From: Muribaculaceae bacterium
GTDB lineage: Bacteria > Bacteroidota > Bacteroidia > Bacteroidales > Muribaculaceae
Assembly (NCBI GenBank): GCA_017553785.1
Contig: JAFZKD010000099.1
Coordinates: forward strand, 1 to 64,000
Length of the DNA stretch: 64,000 nucleotides
Reading direction: 5' to 3'
Below are positions 33,462 through 57,322 of the stretch, piece after piece. Made by a program: the position numbers and the translations under genes. The notes beneath the pieces were generated by a model. It was not told the DNA's origin. It ran no database searches and saw only the letters and a program-made list of their open reading frames with translations. Within the stretch, counting starts at the first letter, position 1; the number at the start of each line of letters is the position of its first letter.

Positions 33462-33475
33462 TGCAATCGGTTGCA
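33462..33475. promoter_or_regulatory. LacI-type operator upstream of the MFS/malQ/pulA operon
   Basis: TGCAATCGGTTGCA with flanking AAT/TT makes AATGCAATCGGTTGCATT (33460-33477), a near-perfect palindrome with a central CG pair, as expected for LacI-family sites. Its centre is 66 bp upstream of the centre of the -7 element at 33531-33538. Confidence 0.75.
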
Positions 33476-33530
33476 TTCTTTTTTTCACGCCAAGACACAT
33501 TATTTATAAATAAATTGAGGGATTTTATGT

Positions 33531-33538
33531 TATTTTTG
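33531..33538 (+). promoter_or_regulatory. -7 element of the MFS/malQ/pulA operon
   Basis: TATTTTTG fits TAnnTTTG. No clear TTTG at the -33 position, as expected where an activator is needed. It lies 57 nt before the MFS start. Confidence 0.6.
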
Positions 33539-33595
33539 TAGGTGCTAACCCAATAAAAAATGAAATTATCACTTAACACTTAAAAATATATCATT

Positions 33596-34936
33596 ATGAA
33601 AACAAAACCGGATTTAAAATTCAACCAACTGTGGAACATCAGCTTTGGTTTCTTTGGAGTGCAAATCGCTTATGCGCTGCAGAGTGCGAACATTAGCCGC
33701 ATCTTTGCGACACTGGGTGCCGACCCCCACAACCTGAGTTACTTTTGGATTCTGCCGCCGCTCATGGGTATGGTCGTACAACCGCTCGTGGGCTACTTCA
33801 GCGACAAGACGTGGCTGGGCCGTTGGGGCCGCCGCATCCCCTACTTGCTGATTGGCGCTCTGGCAGCCGTGATTGTGATGTGTCTACTGCCCAACGCGGG
33901 CTCTTTTGGACTGACCATCGCAGGCGCGATGATTTTTGGTCTGATTGCCCTCATGTTCCTTGACACGAGCATCAATATGGCGATGCAGCCCTTCAAGATG
34001 ATGGTGGGCGATATGGTCAACGAGAAACAGAAAGCCAAAGCCTACTCCATCCAGAGTTTCCTGTGCAATGCGGGTTCGCTGGTGGGCTATATCTTCCCGT
34101 TCCTGTTCACTGCCATCGGTATCGCCAATGTGGCCCCCGAGGGCGTCGTGCCCGATAGCGTGAAGTGGTCATTCTATGTAGGCGCCGCCATCCTTATCCT
34201 GTGCGTCATCTACACCATCAGCCATGTGAAGGAATATACTCCTGCCGAAATGGCCGAGTTCAACGCCGCTGCCAATGCCGAAGGTCAAGGCGAGCAGGCC
34301 GGTACCGAGATGAGTCCCGCACAAAAGAAGCATGCTATCCGCGTGTTCTTTGAAGTGGGCTTGGTACAGTTCTTCTGCTGGGCTGCGTTCATGTATATGT
34401 GGACCTACACCAACGGCACCATTGCCGATACCGTTTGGAATACCACCGACGCGGCAAGCGAGGGATATCAGCAGGCCGGCAACTGGGTCGGTATCCTGTT
34501 TGCGGTTCAGGCCATCGGCAGCGTGCTGTGGGCAGTGGTATTGCCCCGTTTCAAGAACATCAAGGTCGCTTATGCCTTGAGCCTTGTAATTGGTGGCATC
34601 GGCTTTGCCATGGTACCCTTCATCCACAACCAGTACATGCTGTTCGTGCCCTACTTCCTCATCGGCTTCGCATGGGCTGCCATGCTCGCCATGCCGTTTA
34701 CCTTGGTCACTAATGCCTTTGAGGGTAGCAGCCGCATGGGCACCGCCCTTGGCCTGTTCAACTGCACCATCTGCATCCCGCAGATTGTTGCCGCCGCTTT
34801 GGGTGGTGTGCTGCTGGCAAAAGTAATGGGTAGTGTTCAAGGCAACATGCTCCTGCTTGCAGGCATCCTGCTCGTCGTTGGTGCCGCTTGTGTCTTCATT
34901 ATCGAAGATAAAAAACACAAAATGATAGAGAAATAA
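33596..34936 (+). CDS. MFS sugar transporter, SLC45/MalT-like
   Basis: A 446-residue transporter with twelve membrane helices and the SLC45-like start LWNISFGFFGVQIAYALQSANISR. The loop after helix 2 has a YFSDKTWLGRWGRRIPYLLIG motif typical of maltose/sucrose-type MFS proteins. It probably imports maltose or malto-oligosaccharides across the inner membrane. It is first in an operon with malQ and a pullulanase, with a LacI-type operator upstream, so its induction by starch is likely. Confidence 0.88.
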   Translation: MKTKPDLKFNQLWNISFGFFGVQIAYALQSANISRIFATLGADPHNLSYFWILPPLMGMVVQPLVGYFSDKTWLGRWGRRIPYLLIGALAAVIVMCLLPNAGSFGLTIAGAMIFGLIALMFLDTSINMAMQPFKMMVGDMVNEKQKAKAYSIQSFLCNAGSLVGYIFPFLFTAIGIANVAPEGVVPDSVKWSFYVGAAILILCVIYTISHVKEYTPAEMAEFNAAANAEGQGEQAGTEMSPAQKKHAIRVFFEVGLVQFFCWAAFMYMWTYTNGTIADTVWNTTDAASEGYQQAGNWVGILFAVQAIGSVLWAVVLPRFKNIKVAYALSLVIGGIGFAMVPFIHNQYMLFVPYFLIGFAWAAMLAMPFTLVTNAFEGSSRMGTALGLFNCTICIPQIVAAALGGVLLAKVMGSVQGNMLLLAGILLVVGAACVFIIEDKKHKMIEK

Positions 34937-34966
34937 ACAACCAAGAACTTAATACCGACAACAAAA

Positions 34967-37651
34967 ATGAAAGTAAGATTCAATATCGAGTACAGCACCG
35001 TATATGGTGATAACCTAGTTCTCAATATACTGGATAGCACCAGTGGCGAAAAAGTGGCAAGCCATGCCATGAAACCAGCCAATGACAAAGCGTGGAAATG
35101 CGATCTGGATATCCCTGCCAAGGCCGGACACATCGACTATTACTACAGTGTGGACCGCGATGGCAAGGAACAGCGCCACGAGTGGATGGTGGTTCCTCAC
35201 CGTCTGGACCTGAATGCGTCCAAAGCCAATAAATACGTCGTTTTCGACCACTGGAACGACATGCCTGATGACAGTTATCTGTACAGTTCAGCGTTTACCG
35301 ACTGTGTGGCGCTGCGCAAACATCAGATGCCGCCCAAGTGCAAATATTCTTCCATCATCCAGCTGAAAGTGCGCGCGCCGCAACTTCGCACAGGAGAAAC
35401 GCTAGGTATCGTGGGTAACGAGCCCACATTGGGCGATTGGGACGAGAACAAGGCCCTCAAGATGTACGAGCACAACCACAATGAGTGGGTGATTGCGGTC
35501 GATGGCGTTGCGTTCAAGAAGGCTTTCATTGAGTTCAAGTTCATCATCATGGGCGACAAGGGCAAGAACGCCATCTGGGAAACCGGTGACAACCGCACCG
35601 TACTGCTGCCCGTCCTCAGAGAGGGCGAACACATCGTGTATGAACTGCAGCAAGCCTATTTCCCGCTCTATCCCGCCAAGTTGGCAGGCACGGTGGTGCC
35701 CATCTTCTCGCTTCGCAGCGAGGGCAGTTTCGGCGTGGGCGACTTCGGTGACCTCAAACTCATGGTGGACTGGGTGGCCAGCACAGGCCAGCGCGCCCTA
35801 CAGGTGTTGCCCATCAACGACACCACCATCACCCACACCTGGAGCGACAGCTACCCCTATAACAGTATCAGCATCTACGCGTTGCACCCGCAGTACATGG
35901 ATCTGAGACAACTTCCTAAACTCGCCGACAAGAAACGTGCCGCCGAATTTGAGAAACTGCGCAAGGAGCTGAACGCACTGCCCCAAATCGACTATGAGCG
36001 CGTGAACAATGCTAAGCGCGAATACATCTCACTGCTCTTTGAGCAGGAGGGTGCTCAGGTGCTCAAGAGCGACGAGTTCAAGGCGTTCTTCGCCGCCAAT
36101 CAGGACTGGCTGGTGCCTTATGCCGCATTCAGTCACTACCGCAATATGTACGGCACGGCATCCTTCTCGAAATGGCCCGATCACCACATCTTTACCGACG
36201 AGGAGCGCGCCAACATGTCCAATCCCCGAACCAAAGCCTACAAAGAGGTCAGTCTTTGGTACTATGTGCAGTATTACCTCGACAAGCAGATGCGTGACGC
36301 ACACGAATATGCCCAGAACAAGCACGTGATCCTCAAGGGCGACATTCCTATCGGCATCAGCCGCGACAGTGTTGAGGCATGGGTTGAACCCAAGTATTTC
36401 AACCTCAACGGTCAGGCCGGAGCCCCGCCCGACGCATTCTCGACCAACGGACAGAACTGGGGATTCCCGACCTATAACTGGGACGTGATGCTAGCCGACG
36501 GCTGCCAGTGGTGGGTAAAACGCTTCCGCAAGATGGCTCAGTACTTTGACGCCTACCGCATTGACCATGTGCTGGGATTCTTCCGCATTTGGGAAATTCC
36601 CATCAACGCGGTGCATGGCCTCCTCGGCCAGTTCTCACCCTCACTGGGCATGAGCGCACAGGAAATCCGTGGCTATGGCCTGAATTTCCAAGAGCAACTG
36701 ATGACCGAACCGTTCATCGCCGACTGGGTTCTGGACCGCATCTTCGGCAAACTCGCCAATACTGTTCGCCAAAAATACGTGGAACGGGTGCATGACGATA
36801 TCTACCGCATGAAACCCGAGTATGACACCCAACGCAAGATCGAAGCAGCATTCATGGGTAAGGACAGCGAGGAGGACATCTGGTTGCGAGATGGTCTGTA
36901 TGCGCTCATCAGCGACGTGCTGTTTGTGCGTGACCGCAAGAATCCAGCCTTGTTCCACCCGCGCATCTCGGTACAGTTTGATTTTGTTTACGAAGCACTC
37001 TACGACAACGATAAGGCAGCATTCAACAAACTCTATAACGAGTACTACTACCACCGCAACAACGATTTCTGGTACCACGAGGCAATGAAGAAACTGCCCA
37101 TACTGGTGCAGGCCACCCGTATGCTTGTGTGTGCCGAAGATCTGGGCATGGTGCCCGACTGTGTGGCATGGGTCATGAACGAGTTGCGCATCCTGAGCCT
37201 CGAAATCCAGTCGATGCCTAAGGACAACCACATCAAATTCGGCAACCTCAATGCCAATCCCTACCGCAGCGTCGCCACTATCTCGACCCACGATATGCCC
37301 ACAATGAGGCAGTGGTGGGAAGAGGACTGGGAACGCACTCAGGAGTTCTACAACTCCGCGCTCTGGCGTAACGATGCCGCGCCGCATCCGTTGCCCGGTT
37401 GGTTGGCAAACGACATCGTGCGCACCCATCTCAACTGTCCGTCAATGCTGTGCCTTATCTCGTTACAGGATTGGCTCGCCATTGACGAGAATGTACGCCT
37501 GAAAGATGCTGACGCCGAGCGCATCAACATCCCGGCTAATCCACGTCATTATTGGCGCTACCGCATGCACATGACCATTGAACAACTGATGAAGACACAT
37601 GACTTCAACAACCGTGTGAAAGACCTCATCAATCAAAGCGGACGCCAATGA
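34967..37651 (+). CDS. malQ: 4-alpha-glucanotransferase with N-terminal starch-binding domains
   Basis: MalQ (GH77) moves glucan segments between malto-oligosaccharides in the cytoplasm. At 894 residues it is longer than the bacterial MalQ of about 700 because of tandem CBM20-like domains (about 1-110 and 115-240, the second with ETLGIVGNEPTLGDWDENKA). The GH77 part has FSLRSEGSFGVGDFGDL. The nucleophile is Asp533 (AYRIDHVLGF) and the acid/base Glu724 (CAEDLGMVP). No signal peptide, so it acts inside the cell. It lies 30 nt after the MFS gene and overlaps the pullulanase start by 4 bp. Confidence 0.93.
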   Translation: MKVRFNIEYSTVYGDNLVLNILDSTSGEKVASHAMKPANDKAWKCDLDIPAKAGHIDYYYSVDRDGKEQRHEWMVVPHRLDLNASKANKYVVFDHWNDMPDDSYLYSSAFTDCVALRKHQMPPKCKYSSIIQLKVRAPQLRTGETLGIVGNEPTLGDWDENKALKMYEHNHNEWVIAVDGVAFKKAFIEFKFIIMGDKGKNAIWETGDNRTVLLPVLREGEHIVYELQQAYFPLYPAKLAGTVVPIFSLRSEGSFGVGDFGDLKLMVDWVASTGQRALQVLPINDTTITHTWSDSYPYNSISIYALHPQYMDLRQLPKLADKKRAAEFEKLRKELNALPQIDYERVNNAKREYISLLFEQEGAQVLKSDEFKAFFAANQDWLVPYAAFSHYRNMYGTASFSKWPDHHIFTDEERANMSNPRTKAYKEVSLWYYVQYYLDKQMRDAHEYAQNKHVILKGDIPIGISRDSVEAWVEPKYFNLNGQAGAPPDAFSTNGQNWGFPTYNWDVMLADGCQWWVKRFRKMAQYFDAYRIDHVLGFFRIWEIPINAVHGLLGQFSPSLGMSAQEIRGYGLNFQEQLMTEPFIADWVLDRIFGKLANTVRQKYVERVHDDIYRMKPEYDTQRKIEAAFMGKDSEEDIWLRDGLYALISDVLFVRDRKNPALFHPRISVQFDFVYEALYDNDKAAFNKLYNEYYYHRNNDFWYHEAMKKLPILVQATRMLVCAEDLGMVPDCVAWVMNELRILSLEIQSMPKDNHIKFGNLNANPYRSVATISTHDMPTMRQWWEEDWERTQEFYNSALWRNDAAPHPLPGWLANDIVRTHLNCPSMLCLISLQDWLAIDENVRLKDADAERINIPANPRHYWRYRMHMTIEQLMKTHDFNNRVKDLINQSGRQ

Positions 37652-39567
37652 AAAGACTGATCCAACTGGTAGCGATAATCATGGCATTACTCGTACCGCA
37701 TTCCATTAATGCCCGCACTGGGGTTACCTACAGCCCTAGTGCGAGTGGATTCTCAGTAGAGACCAACAGCGATGCCCAGCAAGTGAAGCTACGCATCTAC
37801 AAGGACGGCCTGGGTGGTAAGCCTGTCAAGACCGTCAACATGAAACGCGCCAAAGCGGGCAGCTCGTTGTGGGAAGCGACCGTCAAGGGTGACCTCAAAG
37901 GCAAATTCTACACCTTTGACGTGAAGTACGGCGGCAAATTCCGTGGCGAGAGCGCCGGCATCTGGGCCACCGCAGTGGGAGTGAACGGCAAGCGAGGCGC
38001 TATCGTTGACATGGCGCAACCCAACCCGCTTGGCTGGAATACTGACAAACGGCCCGCCATTGCCGCTAAAGATCTGATTATCTACGAGATGCATCACCGT
38101 GACTTCTCGATTGATGAGTCGGGCGGCTTTACCTACAAGGGTAAATACCTGGCCTTGACCGAGCCTCGCGCTATCAGCCACCTGAAGACTTTGGGTGTGA
38201 ATGCGGTTCACATCCTGCCCTCGTTTGACTATGCTTCGGTCGATGAGACCCGTCTCAACGAGCCGCAGTACAACTGGGGCTATGACCCGGTGAACTACAA
38301 CGTGCCCGAGGGTGGCTACTCGACCGACCCCTTCAAGCCCGAGGTGCGGATCAATGAGTTCAAGCAGATGGTGCAGGCCCTGCACAAGGCTGGCATCAAG
38401 GTCATCTTGGACGTGGTGTATAACCACACATTTAATATCGATGACAGCAATTTCCAGCTGACCCGCCCCGACTATTTCTTCCGTAAAAATACCGACGGCA
38501 CCTACAGCAATGGTAGCGGTTGCGGTAACGAGACGGCCAGTGAGCGCGAAGCCATGCGCCAGTTCATGATCGAGAGCGTGAAGTATTGGGTTGAGGAATA
38601 CCACATTGACGGTTTCCGCTTTGACCTGATGGGTGTGCATGACATCGAGACAATGAACGCCATCCGTGCCGCCCTGCCCAATGACATCTTCATTTATGGC
38701 GAAGGCTGGAGCGCAGGCAGTTGTGCCATCCCTGGCGAACAGTTGGCCATGAAGGCCCACATCACGCAGATGCCTGGCATCGCCGCCTTCAGTGACTGCA
38801 TGCGCGATGGTCTGCGCGGCCCATGGGACAGCGACACCAAAGCGGCCTTTCTGGGTGGAGTCAAGGGCAACGAGGAAAGCCTCAAGTTCGGCATCGTGGG
38901 CGCCATCCGGCACCCGGGCATTGACTACAGCAAGGTGAACTACAGCAAGGAACCATTCGCATTAGAGCCGACACAAATGATCGCCTACGTGAGCTGTCAT
39001 GACGACATGTGCTTGGTAGATCGTCTCAAAGCGAGTGTCAAGGGCATCACAACCGAGGAACTCATCCGTCTTGACCTGCTGGCACAGACCGTGGTAATGA
39101 CCTCACAGGGTGTGCCGTTCATGCTCAGTGGCGAGGAGATGCTGCGTGACAAGAAGGGCGTGCACAACAGCTACAACAGCCCCGACAGTATCAACCATCT
39201 GGATTGGGACAACCTGGAGCGATATCCGCAGGTGATGGAGTATTACAAGAACCTAATCGCCATGCGTAAGGTCCATCCTGCTTTCCACATGGGCAATGCT
39301 GACATGGTGCGCCGCAATCTGGATTTCCTTCCCACCGAGAACTGCCTCGTAGCATTCCACATCAATGGCAAGAATGTTCCTGGTGAACAGTGGGGCGACA
39401 TCTATGTGGCATTCAACGCCCACAAGCGTGCCCGCACCATCGAGATTCCCGAGGGCACATACACCATTGTCTGCCGCAACATCAAGTGTGACCAAGGCGG
39501 CATGGGTATCGTGAAAGGCGGCAAAGTAACCATCCCTGCACAGTCGGCCCTAATCCTCCACAATTGA
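37648..39567 (+). CDS. pulA: Type I pullulanase (GH13)
   Basis: Pullulanase cleaves alpha-1,6 branches of amylopectin and pullulan. The 639-residue protein has a signal peptide (LVAIIMALLVPHSINA), an N-terminal beta domain, and the GH13 barrel. The type I signature YNWGYDP is at 208-214. Catalytic residues are Asp326 (GFRFDLM), Glu352 (GEGWS) and Asp452 (SCHDDM). The signal peptide suggests a periplasmic place, which supports cutting limit dextrins before import. Its ATG overlaps the malQ stop by 4 bp. The C-terminal beta domain is present, so it looks complete. Confidence 0.93.
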   Translation: MKRLIQLVAIIMALLVPHSINARTGVTYSPSASGFSVETNSDAQQVKLRIYKDGLGGKPVKTVNMKRAKAGSSLWEATVKGDLKGKFYTFDVKYGGKFRGESAGIWATAVGVNGKRGAIVDMAQPNPLGWNTDKRPAIAAKDLIIYEMHHRDFSIDESGGFTYKGKYLALTEPRAISHLKTLGVNAVHILPSFDYASVDETRLNEPQYNWGYDPVNYNVPEGGYSTDPFKPEVRINEFKQMVQALHKAGIKVILDVVYNHTFNIDDSNFQLTRPDYFFRKNTDGTYSNGSGCGNETASEREAMRQFMIESVKYWVEEYHIDGFRFDLMGVHDIETMNAIRAALPNDIFIYGEGWSAGSCAIPGEQLAMKAHITQMPGIAAFSDCMRDGLRGPWDSDTKAAFLGGVKGNEESLKFGIVGAIRHPGIDYSKVNYSKEPFALEPTQMIAYVSCHDDMCLVDRLKASVKGITTEELIRLDLLAQTVVMTSQGVPFMLSGEEMLRDKKGVHNSYNSPDSINHLDWDNLERYPQVMEYYKNLIAMRKVHPAFHMGNADMVRRNLDFLPTENCLVAFHINGKNVPGEQWGDIYVAFNAHKRARTIEIPEGTYTIVCRNIKCDQGGMGIVKGGKVTIPAQSALILHN

Positions 39568-39608
39568 CATTGTTGAAGATGGATTAGTAATTAGAGATTA
39601 GTGATCAT

Positions 39609-39644
39609 AAACAAAAAAGAACGCCTCGGCGTTCTTTTTTGTTT
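39609..39644. terminator. Bidirectional terminator between pulA and ddl
   Basis: AAACAAAAAAGAACG (39609-39623) pairs with CGTTCTTTTTTGTTT (39630-39644) around CCTCGG. The T-rich 3' arm suits both directions. The arm overlaps the ddl stop codon (39643-39645). Confidence 0.9.
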
Positions 39645-40644: not shown

Positions 40645-40671
40645 TTTTTGCGCACACATTAAAATTCGGTG

Positions 40672-40710
40672 CAAAATTATATAAAATAATCCGCTTTTTA
40701 AGTAACTTTG
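40672..40710. promoter_or_regulatory. Divergent -7 elements for ddl and murF
   Basis: Minus strand TAATTTTG (40679-40672) faces ddl; plus strand TAACTTTG (40703-40710) faces murF. Neither has a strong -33 TTTG. Confidence 0.55.
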
Positions 40711-40732
40711 CGGTAAATAAAAAGAATAAAAC

Positions 40733-42049: not shown

Positions 42050-42089
42050 AATGAAATCTCACACGAATTAATAACCAAAAACAACTAAA

Positions 42090-46195: not shown

Positions 46196-46213
46196 ATCGG
46201 TAAAGTATTGAAT

Positions 46214-48271
46214 TTATTGCAGGATTCGATTGATCACGAGATTAATGTCGCCGATGTTGAGTTCGCCATCACCATTGACATCAGCGTTAGCGTTGAAGGT
46301 ATTGGACAGAATCAGGTCGATCAGCTCGCTGATGTCGCCGATGTTCACCTCACCGTCACCATTCACGTCACACGGGTTGATGAAGGAGCTGGTGATATCA
46401 TTGACCTCATATTTGTTGGTCTGGGTCGTCACTTCGTAGAATGATGTCTGGGTGACGTTTGCCACGTCTTCGGTCTGATGGCTACCTGCATCGCTGGCAC
46501 TACCGCCCTGATTGAAGACGAAATTCATGTAGTCGTTCTTGGACTTGATGGTATAGGTCTGATAATAGAACTTGACTCCCTTGATCATCTTTGTCTGACT
46601 GATGGTCTGGCCGGGCCAGTCACCGTTAAACTGGTCATTGGAGGCATCCCATGAGTAGAAGTTAACTCTCGGCCAATTGTTGGGAGCCGCTGTCGGGTCT
46701 TTCAGATAAACGGTGATCTCGTAAGGCTCAAAGTCGTCGGCCGGGCCGATGACGTAGTTGCGTGTGATGACACCGCTCACGCTGCCGTTCTTCAACAAGC
46801 CGGCTTTGAGGGTACAATCCTGAGCGAAAGTGACAGCGGTGCCGCTGGCAACAACGGTGCCATTGGTGGCAGTGGGCTCGCTGCCGTCAAGGGTATAAAC
46901 GATCTTCGCATCGTCATCCTGACTGACCGCGGTGAGCGTCACTGCCTGATTGCCGGCAAGCTGACCACTGGGCTTGCTAGCCCATGCCGTCTCGGTGGTC
47001 TTGCTCAATGCCAGGCGATAGTTCGTGCCGCTGAGCACCTCAACGTAGGAATTGGGGATATTGTAGCTAGTGCTACCCATGGCTGCCAGTGCGGCGCCAT
47101 TAGTTCCCAACGTGCGTTGCACATAGTAGTTATTGACCGAGCTGTTGGCAAGCACCTGGGTGGTGCTCATGTTGTGGATTCCCGCCAGCTGGCGCAAGTA
47201 GATCATCTGCTTAATAGCTTCCTTGTAGTCCATCCAGTGCTTAAGGAAGACGCAAGGGGTGCCGGGCATAATCATCATGAAGGCATTGCCGGCCTCGATG
47301 TTCTTGCGGATGGGGTCATTCTGATTGTTGGCATCACGATATTGCGTGTCATGGTTCTCAATAAAGGTGACCGAAAAGCGACGGTAGTTCGCATCCTGAT
47401 TCAAGGTCTTGCCATTGGAAGAAAGGCTAGTCCACTTGTTGTTATTGACAGCGTCACGCACCACATAGCGGAAGGCAAAGTCGAACGCAGCGCTCTGAGG
47501 CTCGCCATCAACCTTAGTGCCGTCGATCCAGTTCTTGAGAGCCGACACATTGCCATCCCAATACTCACCGACGGAGTAAGTGGGCTGCGCATAGGCGTTA
47601 TACAGTCCCGTGAATGAGGCGGCATAGCCCTTGGTCATGTCGTAACGGAAGCCGGCATAGCCCAGGTCGTCGAGCAACATCTTCAAGTAGGCCTTGACGT
47701 TAGTCTGCACATTCTCGCTCTTGTGGTCCAAGTCACGCATACCGCTCCAGTCCTCGCCGGTGTCATAGTTGCTGCTCAACTGGTAGCCATTGGCATTGGC
47801 CCACGCCAGCGCAGCGCCACCGTCATCGTTACGGCAGATGTCGGTTGACTTGAGCTGATAGGTCACTCCATTGTAGGTCTCAGCAGGAAAATCTACCCAG
47901 TTGGATTGGTTCTTGCGGTGATTGATGACCACATCGGCAATGGTGCCGATGCCCTTGCTCTTGAAGGTTTTGATCATCGAAATGAGCTGCGTCTTGTTGC
48001 CAAACGAGCTGTTGTAGTTGGTGAACCAATACTTGTCATCATAGCCCATCGAAGTGCCGCCGCCACAGTTGCCGCTCTGCGGAATCCACACGAGCTGGAA
48101 GAATTCCGAGAGTTCATCGGCCTGGGCCTCGAGGTTGGTCCAACGAGTGTCGGAGTAGGAATCCCAATAGAATCCCTGCAACATCACGCCTGAATAGTTG
48201 GCTGGCCAGCCCTGTGCCAGCATCAACAACGGCAACATTGCCACAAGTGCTGTAGTAAAAATCTTTTTCAT
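46214..48271 (-). CDS. Secreted alpha-amylase (GH13) with starch-binding and dockerin-like domains
   Basis: A 685-residue enzyme that cuts internal alpha-1,4 bonds of starch. The signal peptide (ALVAMLPLLMLAQ) has no lipobox, unlike lipoprotein SusG. The GH13 domain begins SGVMLQGFYWDSY; catalytic residues are Asp211 (GFRYDMTKGY), Glu236 (SVGEYW) and Asp308 (IENHDTQ). Then come a chitobiase-like domain (KIVYTLDGSEPTATNG), a CBM26-like starch-binding domain (EITVYLKDP to YMNFVFNQGG, about 525-610) and a dockerin-like pair (CDVNGDGEVNIGDISELID, DVNGDGELNIGDINLVI). The promoter has a LacI-type operator. It forms an operon with the GH53 gene. Confidence 0.93.
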   Translation of the reverse strand: MKKIFTTALVAMLPLLMLAQGWPANYSGVMLQGFYWDSYSDTRWTNLEAQADELSEFFQLVWIPQSGNCGGGTSMGYDDKYWFTNYNSSFGNKTQLISMIKTFKSKGIGTIADVVINHRKNQSNWVDFPAETYNGVTYQLKSTDICRNDDGGAALAWANANGYQLSSNYDTGEDWSGMRDLDHKSENVQTNVKAYLKMLLDDLGYAGFRYDMTKGYAASFTGLYNAYAQPTYSVGEYWDGNVSALKNWIDGTKVDGEPQSAAFDFAFRYVVRDAVNNNKWTSLSSNGKTLNQDANYRRFSVTFIENHDTQYRDANNQNDPIRKNIEAGNAFMMIMPGTPCVFLKHWMDYKEAIKQMIYLRQLAGIHNMSTTQVLANSSVNNYYVQRTLGTNGAALAAMGSTSYNIPNSYVEVLSGTNYRLALSKTTETAWASKPSGQLAGNQAVTLTAVSQDDDAKIVYTLDGSEPTATNGTVVASGTAVTFAQDCTLKAGLLKNGSVSGVITRNYVIGPADDFEPYEITVYLKDPTAAPNNWPRVNFYSWDASNDQFNGDWPGQTISQTKMIKGVKFYYQTYTIKSKNDYMNFVFNQGGSASDAGSHQTEDVANVTQTSFYEVTTQTNKYEVNDITSSFINPCDVNGDGEVNIGDISELIDLILSNTFNANADVNGDGELNIGDINLVINRILQ

Positions 48272-48305: not shown

Positions 48306-48313
48306 CAAATATA
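48306..48313 (-). promoter_or_regulatory. -7 element of the amylase operon
   Basis: Minus strand TATATTTG fits TAnnTTTG and is identical to the susC element at 57219-57226. No TTTG is seen at -33. Confidence 0.65.
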
Positions 48314-48369: not shown

Positions 48370-48383
48370 TGCAATCGTTTGCA
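48370..48383. promoter_or_regulatory. LacI-type operator upstream of the amylase
   Basis: TGCAATCGTTTGCA, a palindrome with one mismatch and a central CG. Its centre is 67 bp upstream of the -7 centre at 48306-48313. Confidence 0.75.
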
Positions 48384-48497: not shown

Positions 48498-49769
48498 TTA
48501 CTTCACAACCTTGGCGGTTGAAGAGGTGCCGTCGGTGTAACGGGTAACAACGATGGTGACACCGTTGGTCTCGTTCATCTCCTGACCCATCACGTTGTAG
48601 TAACGAACATCGCTAACGGTCTTGCCTGCCACGATCTCGTTAACAGCAGAGTTCTCCTTGATGCTAAGCGTCATCTCGTCGAGATTCACGGTCAAGGTGT
48701 ACTTCTTGCCAGAGGGGATCTTGAAGCTGTTTTCGGTGCCAAAGCCAGCCAGCATCATGTCCATGCCCAGCATATCCTCGCTTACCAGATAACCATTCTC
48801 GATGGCACCGATGCGGTTCAGAGCGATACCGCCCCAATCATCAGCAGCCTCGGCAAGCTTAGAGGTGAATGAGAAGTAGCTGTATGCAACGCCATCCTCT
48901 TCGTTGGTGCCGGTCGGGGTAACCTCAGCAACATAGATATTCTTGTCCTCGGTGGTCATGGCAACACCAAGGTTGGGAGCCCAACCGTTACCGTTCATTT
49001 CGCCCAGGATGAAGAGGTCATCGGTGCGGGGATTGGGAAGATCGCCAGAAGGCTCAGCAATAGCGTTCACCTCGTAGGTGGTGCTGTCGAAGGTGATGTG
49101 GATGTTGTACACACCAGCCTGCTCAATGTAGAGCTGATAGTTTTCGGCAGGCCATGCATTGCCCCAGTCGTGGTTCGCCACAACCTTGAACATAACATCG
49201 CCCTCGGGAAGAGTGCAGTAATTCCTGTCAAGAACCCAGAGGCCTTCGTTGTTCTGCTTCATATCGTTGTCGGTGTTGCTGGGGTCCCACTCGGTACCGA
49301 ATACACTGGCAGGCGTACCGGCTACGGTGAAATACTTGAAACCGTCATCGATAATACCCGAACCCTCAATGATAAACTCCATGTTGTCGAGGTCGAAGGT
49401 GAAAGTGAAAGTATTGACTTCCGAACCGCAAGAGAGTTTATAGGCACCATTGCCATTGCCCTGCTTCTGTGTGGACACATAGTTACCGATGGTCACAGTC
49501 TGGTCAGAGCCCGTGGAGGGACCAAAACGGAACTCGTTGTTGAACTGGTCCCATTCGCCAGCGTTTTCGGTCAGGCCGTCAGCAAATACAAACCAGATGG
49601 TTCCACTGAGATCTACAGTGGCGGTGTAGGTGCCGTCACCGTTGTCATTCATCTTCATACCGTCATTCGTCTGCCAGTTTCCGAAGGGAGTACTGCCGAC
49701 GATGTAGATGTCGGCCTGCATGGACATTGCCACTACAGCCATTGCGATAAGCGTAAAGATTTTCTTCAT
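48498..49769 (-). CDS. SusF/SusE-like protein with C-terminal T9SS sorting domain
   Basis: A 423-residue protein with a Sec signal peptide (LIAMAVVAMSMQA) but no Cys lipobox, unlike its neighbours. It has repeated SusE/SusF-type starch-binding-like modules (DIYIVGSTPFGNWQTNDGM, YFTVAGTPASVFGTEWDPS, LFILGEMNGNGWAPNLGVAM). It ends with a domain of T9SS type A form (VSDVRYYNVMGQEM, then GVTIVVTRYTDGTSS, then KVVK). This suggests release or surface attachment by T9SS, whose core operon lies at 6236-13320. The gene is last in the sus operon and sits behind a possible attenuator, so it may be expressed less than susCDEF. Starch binding is inferred, not shown. Confidence 0.82.
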   Translation of the reverse strand: MKKIFTLIAMAVVAMSMQADIYIVGSTPFGNWQTNDGMKMNDNGDGTYTATVDLSGTIWFVFADGLTENAGEWDQFNNEFRFGPSTGSDQTVTIGNYVSTQKQGNGNGAYKLSCGSEVNTFTFTFDLDNMEFIIEGSGIIDDGFKYFTVAGTPASVFGTEWDPSNTDNDMKQNNEGLWVLDRNYCTLPEGDVMFKVVANHDWGNAWPAENYQLYIEQAGVYNIHITFDSTTYEVNAIAEPSGDLPNPRTDDLFILGEMNGNGWAPNLGVAMTTEDKNIYVAEVTPTGTNEEDGVAYSYFSFTSKLAEAADDWGGIALNRIGAIENGYLVSEDMLGMDMMLAGFGTENSFKIPSGKKYTLTVNLDEMTLSIKENSAVNEIVAGKTVSDVRYYNVMGQEMNETNGVTIVVTRYTDGTSSTAKVVK

Positions 49770-49821
49770 AATTGATCAAATATTAAAATGAATAAAAGTT
49801 AACTTTCTTGGTTGATTGAAG

Positions 49822-49876
49822 AAAAAGCGACGGTCACCCCGTGCGCCCAAGAAGTGGACACACGGGATGCAGTCGC
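49822..49876 (-). terminator. Internal terminator or attenuator between susF and the T9SS cargo gene
   Basis: On the minus strand GCGAC (49876-49872) pairs with GTCGC (49831-49827) and CCCGTG (49866-49861) with CACGGG (49843-49838), with a T-rich TTTTTCTTC tail. It would reduce readthrough to the gene at 48498-49769. Confidence 0.6.
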
Positions 49877-49900
49877 GATATCTTCATTCAAGAGCTCCAT

Positions 49901-50992
49901 TTATTGCTCCATGAAGTAGTAGTAACCCAGGATGTCGTTGAACATCACAGTGTAGGTTCCAGGAGTGACTTTGATGTTCGAGCCGTCCTGAACGCCCGCG
50001 CCCACGGGGAAGGTGGCACCACCCCAGTTCACATCCCAACTACCATTGGCAGCGAACTTGAGCTCAGTGCTCTCGGTGATAACGAGATCCTTCACGATCC
50101 AGTCGTGGTTCTCAGACTTGATGTTAATGCCGGTCATCAGGTTATCGGCAGGATTCCAGCCCTGATAAGAGCCGGGCATGCCAATCATACTGAAGATGCC
50201 AGACACCTCACCGTCATACTTCTCGATAGTCACCTTATCGATATCGGTATCGAGCGTGATCTTGTAGTAGCCCGCATCAGTAACGCGGATGTTGCCACCC
50301 TCGCCAGTGTTGCGAACGATCTCGCCGTCAATCATACTGAACTGGTCGCTAGCGTCACCTGGGGTGTGGATGATCTTGAAGGTCTTGCGTGCAGGGATGT
50401 AACCAATGTACTGCAGGATGGTCACCGAACCAGGAGTACCATACATGGGAACCAGAGAAACGCCTACGTCCTCCATGCCATGGTTGTTCCACGAGCCGTC
50501 GCCGAATGCGGCACCAACGAGGTACCACAGGTCAGGAATGGTAACGGGTGTGAGAATCACATGAACCTCGAACGGCTCACTCTCCATCGTCGTGGCAGTG
50601 GTGCCGTCGGTCATCACCCAACGCACGATGGCGGGGATGTCGCGCTGTTGCAGTGCGCGGCCATAGTTGTCCACCACATACTTGTTCAGAGCGGCAGCAT
50701 CCATGAAACCGTCATTGGTAAGAGGATACTCCTCACCATTGAGAATGATGTAGGTTTCAGCATAGTAGTTGGTGTCATTGACACTGGGAATCGACAGGTT
50801 GCACACCTTGACCTCCGTCGTACCCTCGGGCAACTGAGCGTAGTCAATCAGGTCAACGCCTGTTGCACTGGCTGTACCAAAGGTGATTTCCGCACCTTGG
50901 GGATTGCTCTGGGGCTCTGCCCAGTCCTTGTAGTCCTCGCTACAGCTTGCCATCAGCAGAGTCATTGCTGCGATATATAAAAACTTCTTCAT
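49901..50992 (-). CDS. susF: SusF-like starch-binding surface lipoprotein
   Basis: A 363-residue lipoprotein with signal and lipobox (MTLLMASCSEDYKD). The acidic SEDYKD after the Cys fits the Bacteroidetes signal for surface export. After an N-terminal Ig-like region come two SusE/SusF-type starch-binding modules, the last with SMIGMPGSYQGWNPADNLM, KFAANGSWDVNWGGATFP and TYTVMFNDILGYYYFMEQ. It shares this end with the SusE-like neighbour. It binds starch at the surface next to SusC/SusD. It lies 29 nt after the susE-like gene in the operon. Confidence 0.88.
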   Translation of the reverse strand: MKKFLYIAAMTLLMASCSEDYKDWAEPQSNPQGAEITFGTASATGVDLIDYAQLPEGTTEVKVCNLSIPSVNDTNYYAETYIILNGEEYPLTNDGFMDAAALNKYVVDNYGRALQQRDIPAIVRWVMTDGTTATTMESEPFEVHVILTPVTIPDLWYLVGAAFGDGSWNNHGMEDVGVSLVPMYGTPGSVTILQYIGYIPARKTFKIIHTPGDASDQFSMIDGEIVRNTGEGGNIRVTDAGYYKITLDTDIDKVTIEKYDGEVSGIFSMIGMPGSYQGWNPADNLMTGINIKSENHDWIVKDLVITESTELKFAANGSWDVNWGGATFPVGAGVQDGSNIKVTPGTYTVMFNDILGYYYFMEQ

Positions 50993-51021
50993 ATCTTTTT
51001 CTTGTTTTTAGTTGTTTTACT

Positions 51022-52212
51022 CTACTGTGCGATAAAGGTGTAAGTGCCCATAATGTCGTTGAAGAGGATATAGTACTTGCCGGCGGGAACATTGATATTG
51101 TCACCACCAGAGGCACCAAGACCATAGGGGAAGGTCGTGCCACCCCAGTTAACGTCCCAACTACCGTTGGCAGCAAACTTGAGGGGGGTGTCCTCAGCGA
51201 AGGTTTCTTCAACAAACCAGTCGTGGTTGAACTCCAATCCGTTCAGTTCGCTGACGGGAGCCAACGGGTTGTTCTCGGGAGCCCAGCCCTGATAATCACC
51301 GGGCAGAGAGATCATGTTATAGGTGTTGACAGCCTCGGCATACTTCTCGATGGTGATAGAGCCATCACCGCTGATCAAGATGGAGTAGTAACCAGCCTCG
51401 ACAATGCCGATGTTGTGGTTGTCACCATCCTCATCGCTCAAGAAGGTGCCAGGATTTACCACGTTGGTAAAGTTGAGCTGTTCACCCCAATCACCGGCCA
51501 CATGGACGAACTTGAACTGTCCGCCAGCGGGGAAGTAGCCGACATACATACAACCAGCCACGAAGGAGCCGTCAGTGTCATAAGCGGGATACAGCGGGAT
51601 AAGTCCGGTACCGATGTCGCCAGCACCGTTGTTGCTCCATTCCTTGCTGCCGATGCAGTTACCAACCATGTACCAAATATCGTAAACCTCAGAAGTGCTG
51701 ATGAAGTAAGGCTTCACAACAAGGCTCACAGGATTAGAGTAAATGGTCTTAGCGCCGGGAGTGGATGCGCTCAAACGCAGCCAGATAGTCATCTGCTCAG
51801 GTATCACGCTGCTCTCGTCCCACTGCATAATCTTCACCAGTGATTTGGCAATTTCCTCAGCGCCAACTTCTCCGGAGCAAGATGCAAAAATCGACTTGAG
51901 CACATCATAGGTAGGAACAGTGGCACCCGATTCATCAGCTTTAGCATCTGAAACCGAAGTGCTCCAGTCATTGGTGGGAGACACCTCAAACTGGTAGTCC
52001 ACCGCTGCGGGCCAGCCACCGTAATCCGGCTGAGACCATGTGAAAGGAATCGCCTTGGAGTTGAACAGGTCAACATTGGTATTCACAGGGTTGTTGAGCG
52101 TGAATGAGGTGGGCTGCACCAGCGTGGGGTTGGAATCGCGGTCATCCTCGCATGCGGTGAACACAGTCATCATGCACAACAACATCAGTGATGATAAAAA
52201 TATCTTTTTCAT
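51022..52212 (-). CDS. susE: SusE-like starch-binding surface lipoprotein
   Basis: A 396-residue lipoprotein with a signal ending FTACEDDRDS, an acidic stretch that fits surface export. It has an N-terminal SusE/DUF5115-type domain (SFTLNNPVNTNVDLFNSKAI, FTWSQPDYGGWPAAVDYQFEV), then starch-binding modules (LWYMVG-type, and SLPGDYQGWAPENNPL with KFAANGSWDVNWGGTTFPYG). ATG 52212 begins the signal peptide; another ATG four codons upstream is possible. It lies between susD and susF. The last module is nearly the same as in SusF, a sign of duplication. Confidence 0.88.
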   Translation of the reverse strand: MKKIFLSSLMLLCMMTVFTACEDDRDSNPTLVQPTSFTLNNPVNTNVDLFNSKAIPFTWSQPDYGGWPAAVDYQFEVSPTNDWSTSVSDAKADESGATVPTYDVLKSIFASCSGEVGAEEIAKSLVKIMQWDESSVIPEQMTIWLRLSASTPGAKTIYSNPVSLVVKPYFISTSEVYDIWYMVGNCIGSKEWSNNGAGDIGTGLIPLYPAYDTDGSFVAGCMYVGYFPAGGQFKFVHVAGDWGEQLNFTNVVNPGTFLSDEDGDNHNIGIVEAGYYSILISGDGSITIEKYAEAVNTYNMISLPGDYQGWAPENNPLAPVSELNGLEFNHDWFVEETFAEDTPLKFAANGSWDVNWGGTTFPYGLGASGGDNINVPAGKYYILFNDIMGTYTFIAQ

Positions 52213-52252
52213 GTTCTTTGTCATTTTTATAATGTTAGACGTTGCTTCATCA

Positions 52253-53914
52253 TCAATAACCTGGATTCTGCGTCAGTTTGGGATTAGCGATCAGGTCATC
52301 GGTGGGGATGGCAAACACGTTGCGTTCGGCTGAGAAGTTGCGGCCTTCATAGGCACCACCCTTCCATTGCCACTGGTAATCAACATTGAAACCACCAAAC
52401 TTGCCAAAGCGGATCAAGTCAACGCGACGACGGCCCTCGAAGTAGAACTCACGACCCCACTCAGCCAGAATCTGGTCGAGCGACAGGCTGCGCAGTTCAG
52501 CAGCGTGGGCACGACGGCGCAGGGTGTTGACAGCCTCTCTGGCCTCGTCGGGCTGCTGACCCATACGGGTGAGCGCCTCGGCATAGGTCAAGTAAGCCTC
52601 GGCCTTGCGCATATAGAACAGGTGAGAATCGGCAAAGGTAATGCTGCTACCCTTGCTGCCGTCACACTTGAAGTTGTTGAACTTGGCAATGGCATAGCCA
52701 TAGGTGAAGTCGGACTCGTTCTCCACGTTGAGGTGGCGTCCTGCAGTCTCGAACAATGCGCGGTCATCACCAGCGATTTGATAAACCTCGTAGGCGTGAG
52801 CCTCGGGAGCGTCATCGTTGGGGAAGAACAAGCGAATCAGTTCGGGACGAGCGCGGTTACCGCCCCAGGTGTTGTTGGAGTACAGACCATTCACCTCACT
52901 CGCATCATACATGTTGGGATGAACGTCAGCGTCCACGGTAGAGCACATCAAGAAGTTGGTGCCACCCCATGAAGTGGTGCGCAGACCGTCTTGAATAACG
53001 GGGAACAAGGCCTCATAAGCAGCGTCGGTAACTCCGTTGTCGCCCATGAACAGCATCTGGTAAGCAGTGTACTCGCGGTAAGTACCGTCAATACCCTCAT
53101 CGGCATAGCCCTGAGTGTGAAGCTTGTAGGACGAGTCCATGACCTTCTTGGCATACTTGGCGGCATCTTCCCAACGCGGAGTGCCGGTGTACACTTGCCA
53201 GTTCAGATAGAGACGAGCCAACAGCATCCAAGCAGCGGCTTTATCAACACGGCCATAACCAGTCTGACCATATTTCTTGGGGCTGGGATCGTTAAGGATT
53301 TGATCGCCTGATCCGTCACCAACAATGTCAAGAAGTTCGCTCTCAATAAACTCGCACACCTCGGGGCGGGTCTTCTGATCGGGATCATCACCCGAGACTA
53401 TGGTCGAGAAGGGGATGTTGCCGAATGCGTCGGTCAGCAGATAGTACTGGAAGGCGCGCAAGAAGCGGATTTCGGCAGTCATCGTAGCATCGTAATCGGC
53501 AAATTTCTCCATGTACTGGTTACAGAAAGTGATACCGATACACAGTCCATAATAGTATCCGCGCAGCATCGGGTGGCTGGCGTCATAGGTATTGTGGCAA
53601 TACTCGGGGATACCGGTATCACCCCAGCCGCAGATGGCCTCATCGGTGGTCAACTCGTTGGAGTTCCACATCTGGCGGTACTTGTGCTGGAAACCGCCAT
53701 CCAGACCATCGACGTCCACGTTGTCATCGCCTCCGTTGTTGCCCGAAGTGGCGAACACCGAGTAGCACTTGTTGAACATTTGCTCAACACCCACATCGTT
53801 CTTCAGCGAGGGGTCGATAGGCTCGACATCCAGGTCGTTGATACATGATGTCAATCCACCACCCATCAACAGAACTGCAGCAGCACTCAGTATATATTTG
53901 AAAATCTTATTCAT
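52253..53914 (-). CDS. susD: SusD-family starch-binding lipoprotein
   Basis: SusD caps the SusC barrel and captures glycan. The 553-residue lipoprotein has a signal peptide and lipobox (GGGLTSCINDLDVEP), the SusD/RagB TPR-type helices (FLRAFQYYLLTDAFGNIPFS, WMLLARLYLNWQVY) and the C-terminal region with SHLFYMRKAEAYLTYAEALTR (split here by family motifs), LRRRAHAAELRSLSLDQILAEWGREFYFEGRR and a final NPKLTQNPGY. It is complete. It lies 42 nt after susC and is the partner encoded in the same operon. Confidence 0.95.
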   Translation of the reverse strand: MNKIFKYILSAAAVLLMGGGLTSCINDLDVEPIDPSLKNDVGVEQMFNKCYSVFATSGNNGGDDNVDVDGLDGGFQHKYRQMWNSNELTTDEAICGWGDTGIPEYCHNTYDASHPMLRGYYYGLCIGITFCNQYMEKFADYDATMTAEIRFLRAFQYYLLTDAFGNIPFSTIVSGDDPDQKTRPEVCEFIESELLDIVGDGSGDQILNDPSPKKYGQTGYGRVDKAAAWMLLARLYLNWQVYTGTPRWEDAAKYAKKVMDSSYKLHTQGYADEGIDGTYREYTAYQMLFMGDNGVTDAAYEALFPVIQDGLRTTSWGGTNFLMCSTVDADVHPNMYDASEVNGLYSNNTWGGNRARPELIRLFFPNDDAPEAHAYEVYQIAGDDRALFETAGRHLNVENESDFTYGYAIAKFNNFKCDGSKGSSITFADSHLFYMRKAEAYLTYAEALTRMGQQPDEAREAVNTLRRRAHAAELRSLSLDQILAEWGREFYFEGRRRVDLIRFGKFGGFNVDYQWQWKGGAYEGRNFSAERNVFAIPTDDLIANPKLTQNPGY

Positions 53915-53956
53915 AGTGATCTTTCTAATTTTATAATCGTTAATGTGTCAACTCAA

Positions 53957-56900
53957 TTAGAAGTTCAGACTCAAACCGAGGATGAACGAGATGGGACGCG
54001 GGAAGATGTCGCCGCCGATACCACCGAAGATCTCGGGATCGATACCGTCATACTTGGTAATGCAGAACACGTTACTTACAGTGCCGTAAACACGACCGGC
54101 AACGCCCTCGTAGCCACCGTGCTTGAGCAAACCGGCGAAGCTGTAACCCAGTGTGATGTTGTCACACTTGAGGAACGAAGCGTTCTGTACCCAGTAGTCG
54201 GTCATGATAGTGTTGTTGTCATAGGTCTGCCAACCCAGTTCAACCGATTTGATGGGACGGTTGTTCAGGTAGAAGCCCGAAACAGCCTCAAGTACCGATG
54301 CGGTGCTGGTATTGTGGTAGCCCTGCATCACGTTGTTGAACATATAGTTGCCGATGCTGGCACGCAGGCTGAAGCCAAAGTCCCAGTTCTTCCAGTCGAG
54401 GCGCGAAGCCATACCCATGGTCACGGGTGCGTGCGGTGACTTGTAGAAGTACTTGTCCTCTTCGCTGATGACGCCGTCACCGTTGCGGTCGACAACCTGG
54501 CCCTCTATAGGCTTGCCGTTCACGTCATAAACCTGCTGCAGGACATAGAAGCTACTTGCAGGATGTCCCACGGCGTGAGCCTGGACATTACCGTTGATAC
54601 CGATGCCACCAGTCATAACCTTGAAGGACGGGTCTTTATCGAGAAGCTCGGTGATCTTGTTGCTGTTGTAGGTCACGTTGTAGTCGATGGTCCACAACAA
54701 GTCGGTGGTGGAAATGGCTTTCCAGTTCAACGAGAGCTCGATACCAGTGTTGCGCAGCGAACCGATGTTCTTGTAGAACGCGTTCCTGAAGCTGGTCAAA
54801 GCCGAGAGGGCAGTCCAGTTCAACAGATCGGTGGTCTTGCGATAGTACCAGTCGATGCTACCGCTCAGGCGCTGGTTCATGACACCCCAGTCAAGACCGA
54901 TGTTGGTCGTCGTGGTGGTCTCCCACTTGAGCTCGGGGTTATAAACGTTGGGCCTGGCCTTGTCGCCAGTGCCGAGGAGGTCGTAGAACGAACCTACGCT
55001 ACCGTTGCTGATAACGTAGTTATTGAAGTAGTTGTAGTCGCCGATGCCTTCCTGCTGACCGGTCTTACCCCAACCGAGGCGCAGCTTCAGATCGCTGAAG
55101 GGACTGTCCTTCATGAAGTCTTCCTCATTGATCTTCCATGCAAATGCTGCCGACGGGAACATTGCCCAGTGCTTCTTGAAGCGGGACGAACCGTCATAAC
55201 GCAGGGTGAAGGTCATCAGATAGCGGTTGTTATAAGTGTAATTGGCACGGCCAAAGAACGACACGAGGAAGTTCTCGGTACGATAGCCCTCACCATTATT
55301 CTGGCGGTAAACACCGTCACCATAGATCTTACCGGCTTTGGAGTCACCAATATTGTAATTGGCGCTGGGAATCCATATGCCAGGAGCCACGTGCAATGCC
55401 TTCTCGCTATCTTCGTCGGTGAAGAAGAGTGCCGAGTTAGTGGGATAGGTACCCCAAGACTCATTATACTCCTTGCGCCAGTTGTGCTGCCACTCGTAAC
55501 CAGCCATGATGTCGAAGTGGTGCTTGTCGTTGAAGTCCTTGTAATACTGGGCATAGGTACTCAACTGCAGGTTCTCCTTGGACTGGGTGTAGTAGCTGGT
55601 GTTGCCGTAGTAGTTCGAGGTATTGGAGATATTGGCGCTGATGTTGTGGCCATGACCGCCGGTGAAGTCACCACCCAAAGTGAGGTGGAGCCTCAGGTCC
55701 TCGAAACCGTGGATCTTGTAATCAATGTCTGCACTGCCGATGAAGGCGTGTGACCAACCCGTGTTGTCATGGTTGTCGAGCATGGCGACGGGGTTATAAG
55801 GCGCGTTGCCGTTCTTGGTGTAGGGCCAAGCAGGGTCTGCGAGGTTATCCTGCATCCAGTCGAAGTAACCACCCACACCAGCATACTTCGGGTCATTGGA
55901 ATAGATGGGCTGTGTCGGGTCCATGCGCACGGCATTGCCCACAGCGCCGGTATCGGCCCAGCGTGACTTGGTCCATGCCAGTTTACCGTTAAGGTTCAGC
56001 GTCAGGTGGTCATCAAAGAACGAGGGGTTCAGGTTCAAGGCCGTAGTGAGACGCTTGAAGTCCGACGTCTTGAGGATACCTTGCTGATCGGTGTAGCCCA
56101 CCGAAACGCGATAAGGCAGATATTGGCCAACCGAACCGGCAAGCGTAATGTTGTGGTCATGGCTCAGCGCGGTGCGGTAAATCTCATTCTGCCAGTCGGT
56201 GTTGGCGTTGCCCAGTAATGACAGGGCAGTCTCCTCACGGGAGTCGCCGGCAAAGATTTTCTTTACAAATGCACGGTACTCATCACCGTCCATCACATCG
56301 ATGGTTTTTTTCTTCATGCTCCAGGTAACGCTACCATTGTAAGCTACCTGGGGACGCTGGCCGCGACGGCCCTTCTTGGTGGTGATGATGATGACACCGT
56401 TAGAACCACGGCTACCGTAGATAGCGGTGGCAGAGGCGTCCTTCAACACGTTGAAACTCTCAATGTCCTGGGGGTTAACCAGTGACAAGGGGTTGGACAG
56501 ACCGCTGACACCGTTATTATCCATGGCGATGCCATCGATAACGATGAGCGGGTTATTGCTGGCGTTAAGTGACGAACCACCACGGATACGGATGGTGGAG
56601 CCACCACCGGGGGTACCGTCACCACTGGTGACGTTCACACCGGCAATCTTACCGCCGAGCATGTCCTGGGCGCTGACAACGACACCCTTGTTCTTGGCAT
56701 CGGGTTTAAGCGCTGCCACCGAACCGGTCAAGTCGTTTTTCTTCACTACACCATAACCGATGACCACCAGATTCTCAAGCATCTGGGTGCTCTCGGCAAG
56801 GGTAATCACTAATTCGCTGGCTGCGGTGACCTCATGTTCCTCGTAGCCGACAGACGAAATCAGGAGCTTGGCGCCCTGAGGCACACCTTCAAGGGTGAAG

Positions 56901-57091
56901 TAACCGTCAAAGTCGGTTGCAGTACCCATCTGTGTGCCAACGACACGAACACTCGCGCCGATCACAGGCTCGCCGGTAGCATCCTTTACAAGGCCATTCA
57001 CAGTAATCTGTGCATAGCCCCCGAGTGACAGGAGAAGTCCCATCACAAGGGTTAGAATCCTAGACGGAATTCTGATGTTTACCTGCTTCAT
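53957..57091 (-). CDS. susC: SusC-family TonB-dependent outer-membrane transporter
   Basis: SusC imports malto-oligosaccharides using TonB energy. The 1044-residue protein has a signal peptide (LVMGLLLSLGGYAQ), a carboxypeptidase-regulatory-like domain (VNGLVKDATGEPVIGASVRV, about 32-105), the plug with AQDMLGGKIAGVNVTSGD, TIRIRGGSSLNASNNPLIVI and DASATAIYGSRGSNGVIIITT, then the barrel ending in a terminal aromatic strand (PISFILGLSLNF). It heads the operon susC-D-E-F plus the T9SS-tailed gene. The promoter has a LacI-type operator 67 bp upstream of the -7 element. Confidence 0.95.
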   Translation of the reverse strand: MKQVNIRIPSRILTLVMGLLLSLGGYAQITVNGLVKDATGEPVIGASVRVVGTQMGTATDFDGYFTLEGVPQGAKLLISSVGYEEHEVTAASELVITLAESTQMLENLVVIGYGVVKKNDLTGSVAALKPDAKNKGVVVSAQDMLGGKIAGVNVTSGDGTPGGGSTIRIRGGSSLNASNNPLIVIDGIAMDNNGVSGLSNPLSLVNPQDIESFNVLKDASATAIYGSRGSNGVIIITTKKGRRGQRPQVAYNGSVTWSMKKKTIDVMDGDEYRAFVKKIFAGDSREETALSLLGNANTDWQNEIYRTALSHDHNITLAGSVGQYLPYRVSVGYTDQQGILKTSDFKRLTTALNLNPSFFDDHLTLNLNGKLAWTKSRWADTGAVGNAVRMDPTQPIYSNDPKYAGVGGYFDWMQDNLADPAWPYTKNGNAPYNPVAMLDNHDNTGWSHAFIGSADIDYKIHGFEDLRLHLTLGGDFTGGHGHNISANISNTSNYYGNTSYYTQSKENLQLSTYAQYYKDFNDKHHFDIMAGYEWQHNWRKEYNESWGTYPTNSALFFTDEDSEKALHVAPGIWIPSANYNIGDSKAGKIYGDGVYRQNNGEGYRTENFLVSFFGRANYTYNNRYLMTFTLRYDGSSRFKKHWAMFPSAAFAWKINEEDFMKDSPFSDLKLRLGWGKTGQQEGIGDYNYFNNYVISNGSVGSFYDLLGTGDKARPNVYNPELKWETTTTTNIGLDWGVMNQRLSGSIDWYYRKTTDLLNWTALSALTSFRNAFYKNIGSLRNTGIELSLNWKAISTTDLLWTIDYNVTYNSNKITELLDKDPSFKVMTGGIGINGNVQAHAVGHPASSFYVLQQVYDVNGKPIEGQVVDRNGDGVISEEDKYFYKSPHAPVTMGMASRLDWKNWDFGFSLRASIGNYMFNNVMQGYHNTSTASVLEAVSGFYLNNRPIKSVELGWQTYDNNTIMTDYWVQNASFLKCDNITLGYSFAGLLKHGGYEGVAGRVYGTVSNVFCITKYDGIDPEIFGGIGGDIFPRPISFILGLSLNF

Positions 57092-57218
57092 TTTAATTTT
57101 TTTAAAGTTAATATTATATTGGTAATCAATTAATTATTTTCTTAGCCCAAGGGTTCCCGACCGACGCGCTTACCTGAAGACACGCACCAAGTCAAGAAAA
57201 CACACGCCTAAATCATGG

Positions 57219-57226
57219 CAAATATA
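57219..57226 (-). promoter_or_regulatory. -7 element of the susC operon
   Basis: Minus strand TATATTTG fits TAnnTTTG, with no TTTG at -33. It gives a leader of about 120 nt. Confidence 0.65.
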
Positions 57227-57282
57227 AGCAAAATCAAAATAATTTTCTTTAATTTATAATGTTAAAATCTTAATTAATTACA

Positions 57283-57296
57283 TGCAATCGTTTGCG
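57283..57296. promoter_or_regulatory. LacI-type operator between susC and lacI
   Basis: TGCAATCGTTTGCG, a palindrome with two mismatches and a central CG. Its centre is 67 bp upstream of the susC -7 centre. It also covers the -33 TTTG (57291-57294) of the divergent lacI promoter. Confidence 0.75.
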
Positions 57297-57322
57297 CAAT
57301 TCAAAAAATAGCATTATCTTCG
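57291..57322 (+). promoter_or_regulatory. Promoter of the lacI-family gene
   Basis: TTTG (57291-57294), a 20-nt spacer and TATCTTCG (57315-57322), one mismatch to TAnnTTTG. The -33 box lies inside the LacI-type operator, which suggests self-repression. Confidence 0.6.

Follow-up and report, generated by a model that had tools for sequence, protein, structure and literature searches.

Operators at a fixed distance upstream of starch gene promoters suggest activation by a LacI-family regulator in Muribaculaceae and related Bacteroidales

In Bacteroides thetaiotaomicron, SusR activates susA and susBCDEFG upon maltose or starch, and the LacI-family regulators reconstructed for that species (KdgR, UxaR, UxmR and UxuR) serve sugar acids, in the part of the source used here (PMC3878776). 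SusR sits in the membrane, has a periplasmic sensor and uses direct-repeat motifs, whereas the starch locus described here, from a Muribaculaceae bacterium (GCA_017553785.1; the window analysed is the 64,000-nucleotide stretch at positions 1 to 64,000 of contig JAFZKD010000099.1), carries a 343-aa protein of the LacI fold that is paired with a palindromic operator and whose Pfam matches, spanning residues 8-340, are all LacI-type. In B. fragilis, OsuR was reportedly described in 2006 as a maltose-responsive activator of the starch operon osuABCD. The initial annotation of the window had set its LacI-type control against SusR; this contrast is right, but a LacI-type regulator accompanied by an MFS transporter has already been predicted in B. 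fragilis and B. uniformis for starch loci without a SusR homologue, in the sections consulted (PMC11633381), so the type of regulator is not new. Compared by description, these loci and ours are alike in the LacI-type regulator, the MFS transporter and the lack of a SusR homologue, while the regulon here also includes unlinked amylases and an enolase. The portions of the literature on OsuR-type loci that we consulted describe neither an operator nor a spacing rule.

Members of the LacI family mostly repress. Cra/FruR and PckR are dual regulators that repress some genes and activate others, and for PckR the sign has been predicted from the position of the site, as given in the excerpts used (PMC4052901). 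Both act in the central metabolism of Proteobacteria and have no tie to the -33/-7 promoter of Bacteroidota, unlike the regulator here. The latter has the domains of the LacI/GalR family (an N-terminal LacI HTH, PF00356, 59.7 bits with a cut-off of 27; a periplasmic-binding-like sensor, PF13377, 113.1 bits with a cut-off of 26.5) and is the single PF00356 match found in its genome, which is ~80% complete, so that a second LacI protein could be missed. Its best sequence match among solved structures is CcpA of Firmicutes (E=1.1e-37), deposited as a glucose-resistance amylase regulator, and the cre-type operator of CcpA has a central CG, similar to the operator here. Against the NCBIfam model of CcpA, however, it scores 158.8 bits with a cut-off of 442.35, and none of the 20 families listed from the curated NCBIfam models (CcpA, MalI, GalR, CytR and others) reaches its cut-off. 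The predicted operator, TGCAAnCGnTTGCA, is an even palindrome, as are most LacI motifs in the sections consulted (PMC4052901). In a midpoint-rooted tree of 70 proteins the regulators of the window's genus group with those of Prevotellaceae, far from nine other Muribaculaceae proteins, which suggests transfer of the gene.

According to the initial annotation, three palindromes precede the -7 elements of the MFS/malQ/pulA, amylase/GH53 and susC operons by 66, 67 and 67 bp. All three lie where it put them (Table 1), and the distances are exact when taken from the operator centre to the centre of a TAnnTTTG element with the operator upstream, as they are throughout this work. Its reading of the -33 regions holds as well: no TTTG is present at gaps of 17-22 bp in any of the three target promoters, and the divergent lacI promoter has a -33 TTTG that is covered by operator 3. 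On the side of operator 1 that faces ychF, an off-rule TAnnTTTG is present at 48 bp. When up to three mismatches are allowed, the window contains no excess of the palindrome (23 matches, 29 expected), which would fit a chance alignment of a common palindrome with a common -7 string; the remainder of the genome and its relatives speak against such an alignment, as set out below.

Table 1 Features of the starch locus in the window, with predicted operators and promoter elements
Feature	Coordinates	Strand	Basis or distance
Operator 1, TGCAATCGGTTGCA	33462..33475	no strand	sequence scan, palindrome
Predicted -7 element of MFS operon, TATTTTTG	33531..33538	+	66 bp from operator 1
MFS transporter (PF07690), promoter-proximal gene of target operon	33596..34936	+	Pfam
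malQ, GH77 4-alpha-glucanotransferase with CBM20	34967..37651	+	Pfam
Pullulanase-like GH13 (pulA)	37648..39567	+	Pfam
GH53 with dockerin type I domain	44828..46195	-	Pfam
Alpha-amylase carrying a dockerin type I domain; CBM26 match under cut-off	46214..48271	-	Pfam
Predicted -7 element of amylase/GH53 operon, TATATTTG	48306..48313	-	67 bp from operator 2
Operator 2, TGCAATCGTTTGCA	48370..48383	no strand	sequence scan, palindrome
X25-domain protein, CBM20 match under cut-off; last gene of presumed sus operon	48498..49769	-	Pfam
SusF/SusE-like protein	49901..50992	-	Pfam
SusE/SusF-like protein	51022..52224	-	Pfam
SusD-like protein	52253..53914	-	Pfam
SusC-like TonB-dependent receptor	53957..57091	-	Pfam
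Predicted susC -7 element, TATATTTG	57219..57226	-	67 bp from operator 3
Operator 3, TGCAATCGTTTGCG, between susC and lacI	57283..57296	no strand	sequence scan, palindrome
TTTG inside operator 3, predicted -33 of lacI	57291..57294	+	sequence
Predicted lacI -7 element, TATCTTCG, one mismatch to TAnnTTTG	57315..57322	+	29 bp from operator 3; 20 bp after TTTG
LacI/GalR-family regulator, 343 aa	57404..58435	+	Pfam

Some further features of these genes deserve mention. Between operator and -7, the window (33490-33515) and the orthologous MFS promoters of the genus contain a ACATTATTTATAATAA-like sequence, recognised by eye, which may be the site of a second factor or an AT-rich polymerase contact. 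Dockerin type I domains are found on starch enzymes of the window genome (window 44828-48271; L016 3142-6354; L017 4139-7357), a hint of an amylosome-like assembly. GH53 is a galactanase family; GH53 genes share the starch operator in several genera (window 44828-46195; L049 1088-2197; L135 1330-2502), which makes their substrate of interest.

A scan of the whole genome for the palindrome, proposed in the initial annotation, extended the spacing to four further sites, again measured to predicted -7 elements. Allowing one mismatch to TGCAANCGNTTGCA yields 16 palindromic places, compared with 6 for a control pattern, so some of the single-mismatch places are background. Fifteen of the 16 were examined and seven have TAnnTTTG at 66/67 bp, comprising all four exact palindromes and 3 of the 11 with a mismatch; the spacing is absent at the remaining eight, and an off-rule element stands at 72 bp from the C83 site. 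Even with a 6-fold inflated rate for the element, 7/15 would be reached by chance with P ~1e-11, and the 4/12 outside the window with P ~2e-6. The four additional sites are found on contigs other than that of the window, where they precede two dockerin alpha-amylases with CBM26, a 1694-aa CBM26/X25 starch-binding protein and an enolase. Duplication of one promoter was considered as the origin of the regulon and rejected, since in the stretch of 55-56 bp that separates operator and -7 the seven promoters resemble one another no more closely than shuffled DNA does (identity 0.326 and 0.324, respectively); the spacing has therefore not been inherited in this way.

The rule extends to the genus. 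When 101 genomes were searched with a permitted spacing of 52-82 bp, true matches were obtained in 80 and the control pattern gave a single match. Among the matches listed, 131 of 150 rows fall at 64-67 bp, although the rows are not independent because a palindrome matches in either direction and related genomes have promoters in common. A close orthologue of the regulator is present in 95/101 genomes, including all 48 of high quality. At each of the 39 genus lacI loci examined the operator is flanked on one side by a -7 element at 64-67 bp, and 38 of these loci contain a SusC-like gene. The enolase is a weaker target than the others of the genus, its site being kept at 64-68 bp, with up to three mismatches, in 14 of the 29 loci, out of 30, that could be read. 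At family level the pattern occurs in 21/26 genomes of the window's genus and in 2/221 others.

Beyond the family, a scan of named genomes, which required 52-82 bp on one side, returned at least 118 stretches; 86 Bacteroidota loci were kept (mostly Prevotella and relatives, with Hallella, Bacteroides, Mediterranea, some Sodaliphilus-type loci and others), and 32 from other phyla or unnamed bacteria were left out. Among the matches listed, a -7 element stands 64-68 bp from 76 of the 90 exact operators in these loci, and 20 of the 90 have one at this distance on both sides. The requirement of 52-82 bp on a single side produces neither the sharpness of the peak nor the elements found on the other side. 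Together with the control in the genus, the spacing peaks in genus and phylum and the probability calculated for the window's own genome, this refutes a chance alignment, which we consider scarcely credible. The genes concerned are those of starch use: 75 non-lacI target proteins with spacings of 63-68 bp were collected, the own genome included, 70 of them from Bacteroidota, and among the matches listed 63 of the 70 resemble one of eight proteins of the window's starch region (SusC 21, GH77 14, amylase 10, cyclomaltodextrinase 7, X25 6, GH53 3, MFS 2). Seven, the enolase among them, have no such match. Pfam assignments for 16 targets agree with a role in starch use; apart from the enolase, the exceptions are a protein with leucine-rich repeats (spacing 63 bp) and one from Pedobacter that has no match.

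At the level of the order, the 64-67 bp spacing was found in 9/26 genomes with the LacI regulator and 2/269 without it (P ~4e-9), while other spacings showed no association with its presence (P=0.29). These figures bear on the possibility that a different DNA-binding protein uses the operators and that the LacI gene merely adjoins them. We infer the link of regulator to operators, which leaves room for this reading, yet the co-occurrence of regulator and spacing across an order, the operator at lacI itself in 39/39 genus loci and the lone PF00356 match in the genome make it very improbable. The rule weakens outside the core clade: among 25 loci of distant orthologues (L188-L212), the distances next to lacI are 64-68 bp in five, 76-78 in five, 55 in one and neither in 14. 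The 131 order-level rows include 63 at 64-68, 16 at 53-56 and 22 at 76-79 bp, and outside the main peak a Rayleigh test (n=60, three periods tried) gave p=0.009 at 11, 0.04 at 10.5 and 0.24 at 10, so that helical phasing of the allowed positions is suggestive only. Of 15 rows inspected in the 75-79 class, 9 contain another CG centre displaced 12 bp downstream, which puts it near 65 bp, and these (G376, G574, G398, G382, G486, G578, G531, G524, G341) look like two stacked, overlapping palindromes. An operator 76 bp from TAnnTTTG, about one helical turn further, was also seen at L274, L275, L277 and L279; the genes that follow the element after several hundred bases have, by eye, N-termini like those of xylulokinase and xylose isomerase in three of the genomes, and the fourth has an unrelated gene in this place.

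Activator-dependent promoters are expected to have weak -33 elements. TTTG at -33, with gaps of 19-20 bp, occurs in 2/159 targets and 12/98 controls (P=2.5e-4), in promoters that had been chosen by their -7 match; four of an initial 102 controls, from non-Bacteroidota or unnamed records, were left out. The deficit persists after collapsing at 70% identity (2/128 and 12/95, P=1.2e-3). In the genus alone, too small or uniform a sample, the strict test gave 1/43 and 12/102 (P=0.11), and looser ones gave P=0.04 (TTTG at 18-21 bp) and P=0.01 (TTG at 19-20 bp).

We propose that the LacI-family protein is a starch, probably malto-oligosaccharide, regulator that would bind TGCAAnCGnTTGCA at about -74 relative to the expected start, ~66 bp ahead of the -7 element, and from there activate the promoters of susC-F, MFS-malQ-pulA, amylase/GH53, the unlinked amylases, the starch-binding protein and the enolase. 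It presumably touches RNA polymerase, with the alpha C-terminal domain as the probable partner, in the manner of class I activators, and this contact could replace the -33 contact that the targets do without; a fixed site upstream of the promoter elements, as in the class I type, is what we find at the predicted promoters. The initial annotation had claimed activation from a position near -75. The geometry is strongly supported and extends further than it claimed, and activation is the best explanation, favoured by the fixed spacing in unrelated promoters, the missing -33, the equal spacing on two sides and the single LacI match. Taken together, we hold activation of the starch genes from about -74, combined with self-repression in the genus, to be probable on the basis of the sequence comparisons.

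A repressor could be placed in the same way. A LacI protein bound near -74 might touch RNA polymerase and block initiation until the sugar releases it; this too needs a fixed spacing, so the spacing data fit equally, and besides the habit of the family there is a precedent in GalR, which represses galP1 by contact from a fixed upstream distance. Promoters lacking a -33 TTTG are, however, unlikely to be strong unaided, and operators shared by two divergent promoters at equal distance also count against such a repressor, which we regard as unlikely. Less likely still is indirect repression, by looping or by blocking another activator bound between operator and -7. The ACATTATTTATAATAA-like sequence of the genus MFS promoters could be the site of such a factor, but a search of 116 targets outside the genus lacI loci revealed no second dyad common to them upstream of the -7. 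Looping would not need a precision of 2-3 bp, and at 343 aa the regulator is shorter than E. coli LacI (360 aa), whose tail makes tetramers.

On its divergent side operator 3 overlaps the predicted -33 of lacI, so that bound protein would repress its own gene. The self-repression claimed for the window fits the genus, in which it is probable: the lacI -7 is at 29 bp in 36 of the 39 loci, so that the TTTG of the operator forms the -33, and at 59 bp in three genomes. In the window and in all 29 loci of the subclade nearest to it (L159-L187), the lacI -7 reads TAnnTTCG instead of TAnnTTTG. The claim does not generalise, however. Among the matches listed from named Bacteroidota genomes, the distance to the lacI -7 is 64-68 bp for 21 of 25 operators next to lacI, which predicts self-activation outside the genus. 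Family f22 has it at 28-29 bp in all three loci, and its regulators are placed away from those of the genus in the 70-protein tree, which suggests that the 29-bp arrangement arose twice; the direction of the change is unsure, given the midpoint rooting. On balance, and with some reserve, we lean towards a broader model in which a class I-like LacI activator operates across many Bacteroidales from a site ~66 bp from the -7 that replaces the -33, one palindrome may drive two divergent promoters, and some lineages (the window's genus, probably Sodaliphilus, and, separately, f22) would have relocated the lacI promoter to 29 instead of 66 bp, thereby passing from self-activation to self-repression.

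The spacing rule was not found described in the CC-licensed PMC literature searched, where absence proves little; within that literature, the rule, its breadth and the lineage-specific rewiring of autoregulation are new. An operator followed at 64-68 bp by TAnnTTTG without a -33 predicts unlinked members of the starch regulon in poorly culturable rumen and gut Bacteroidales, and provides a testable model for activators at the unusual promoter of Bacteroidota. It also suggests that a single operator can be rewired between self-activation and self-repression.
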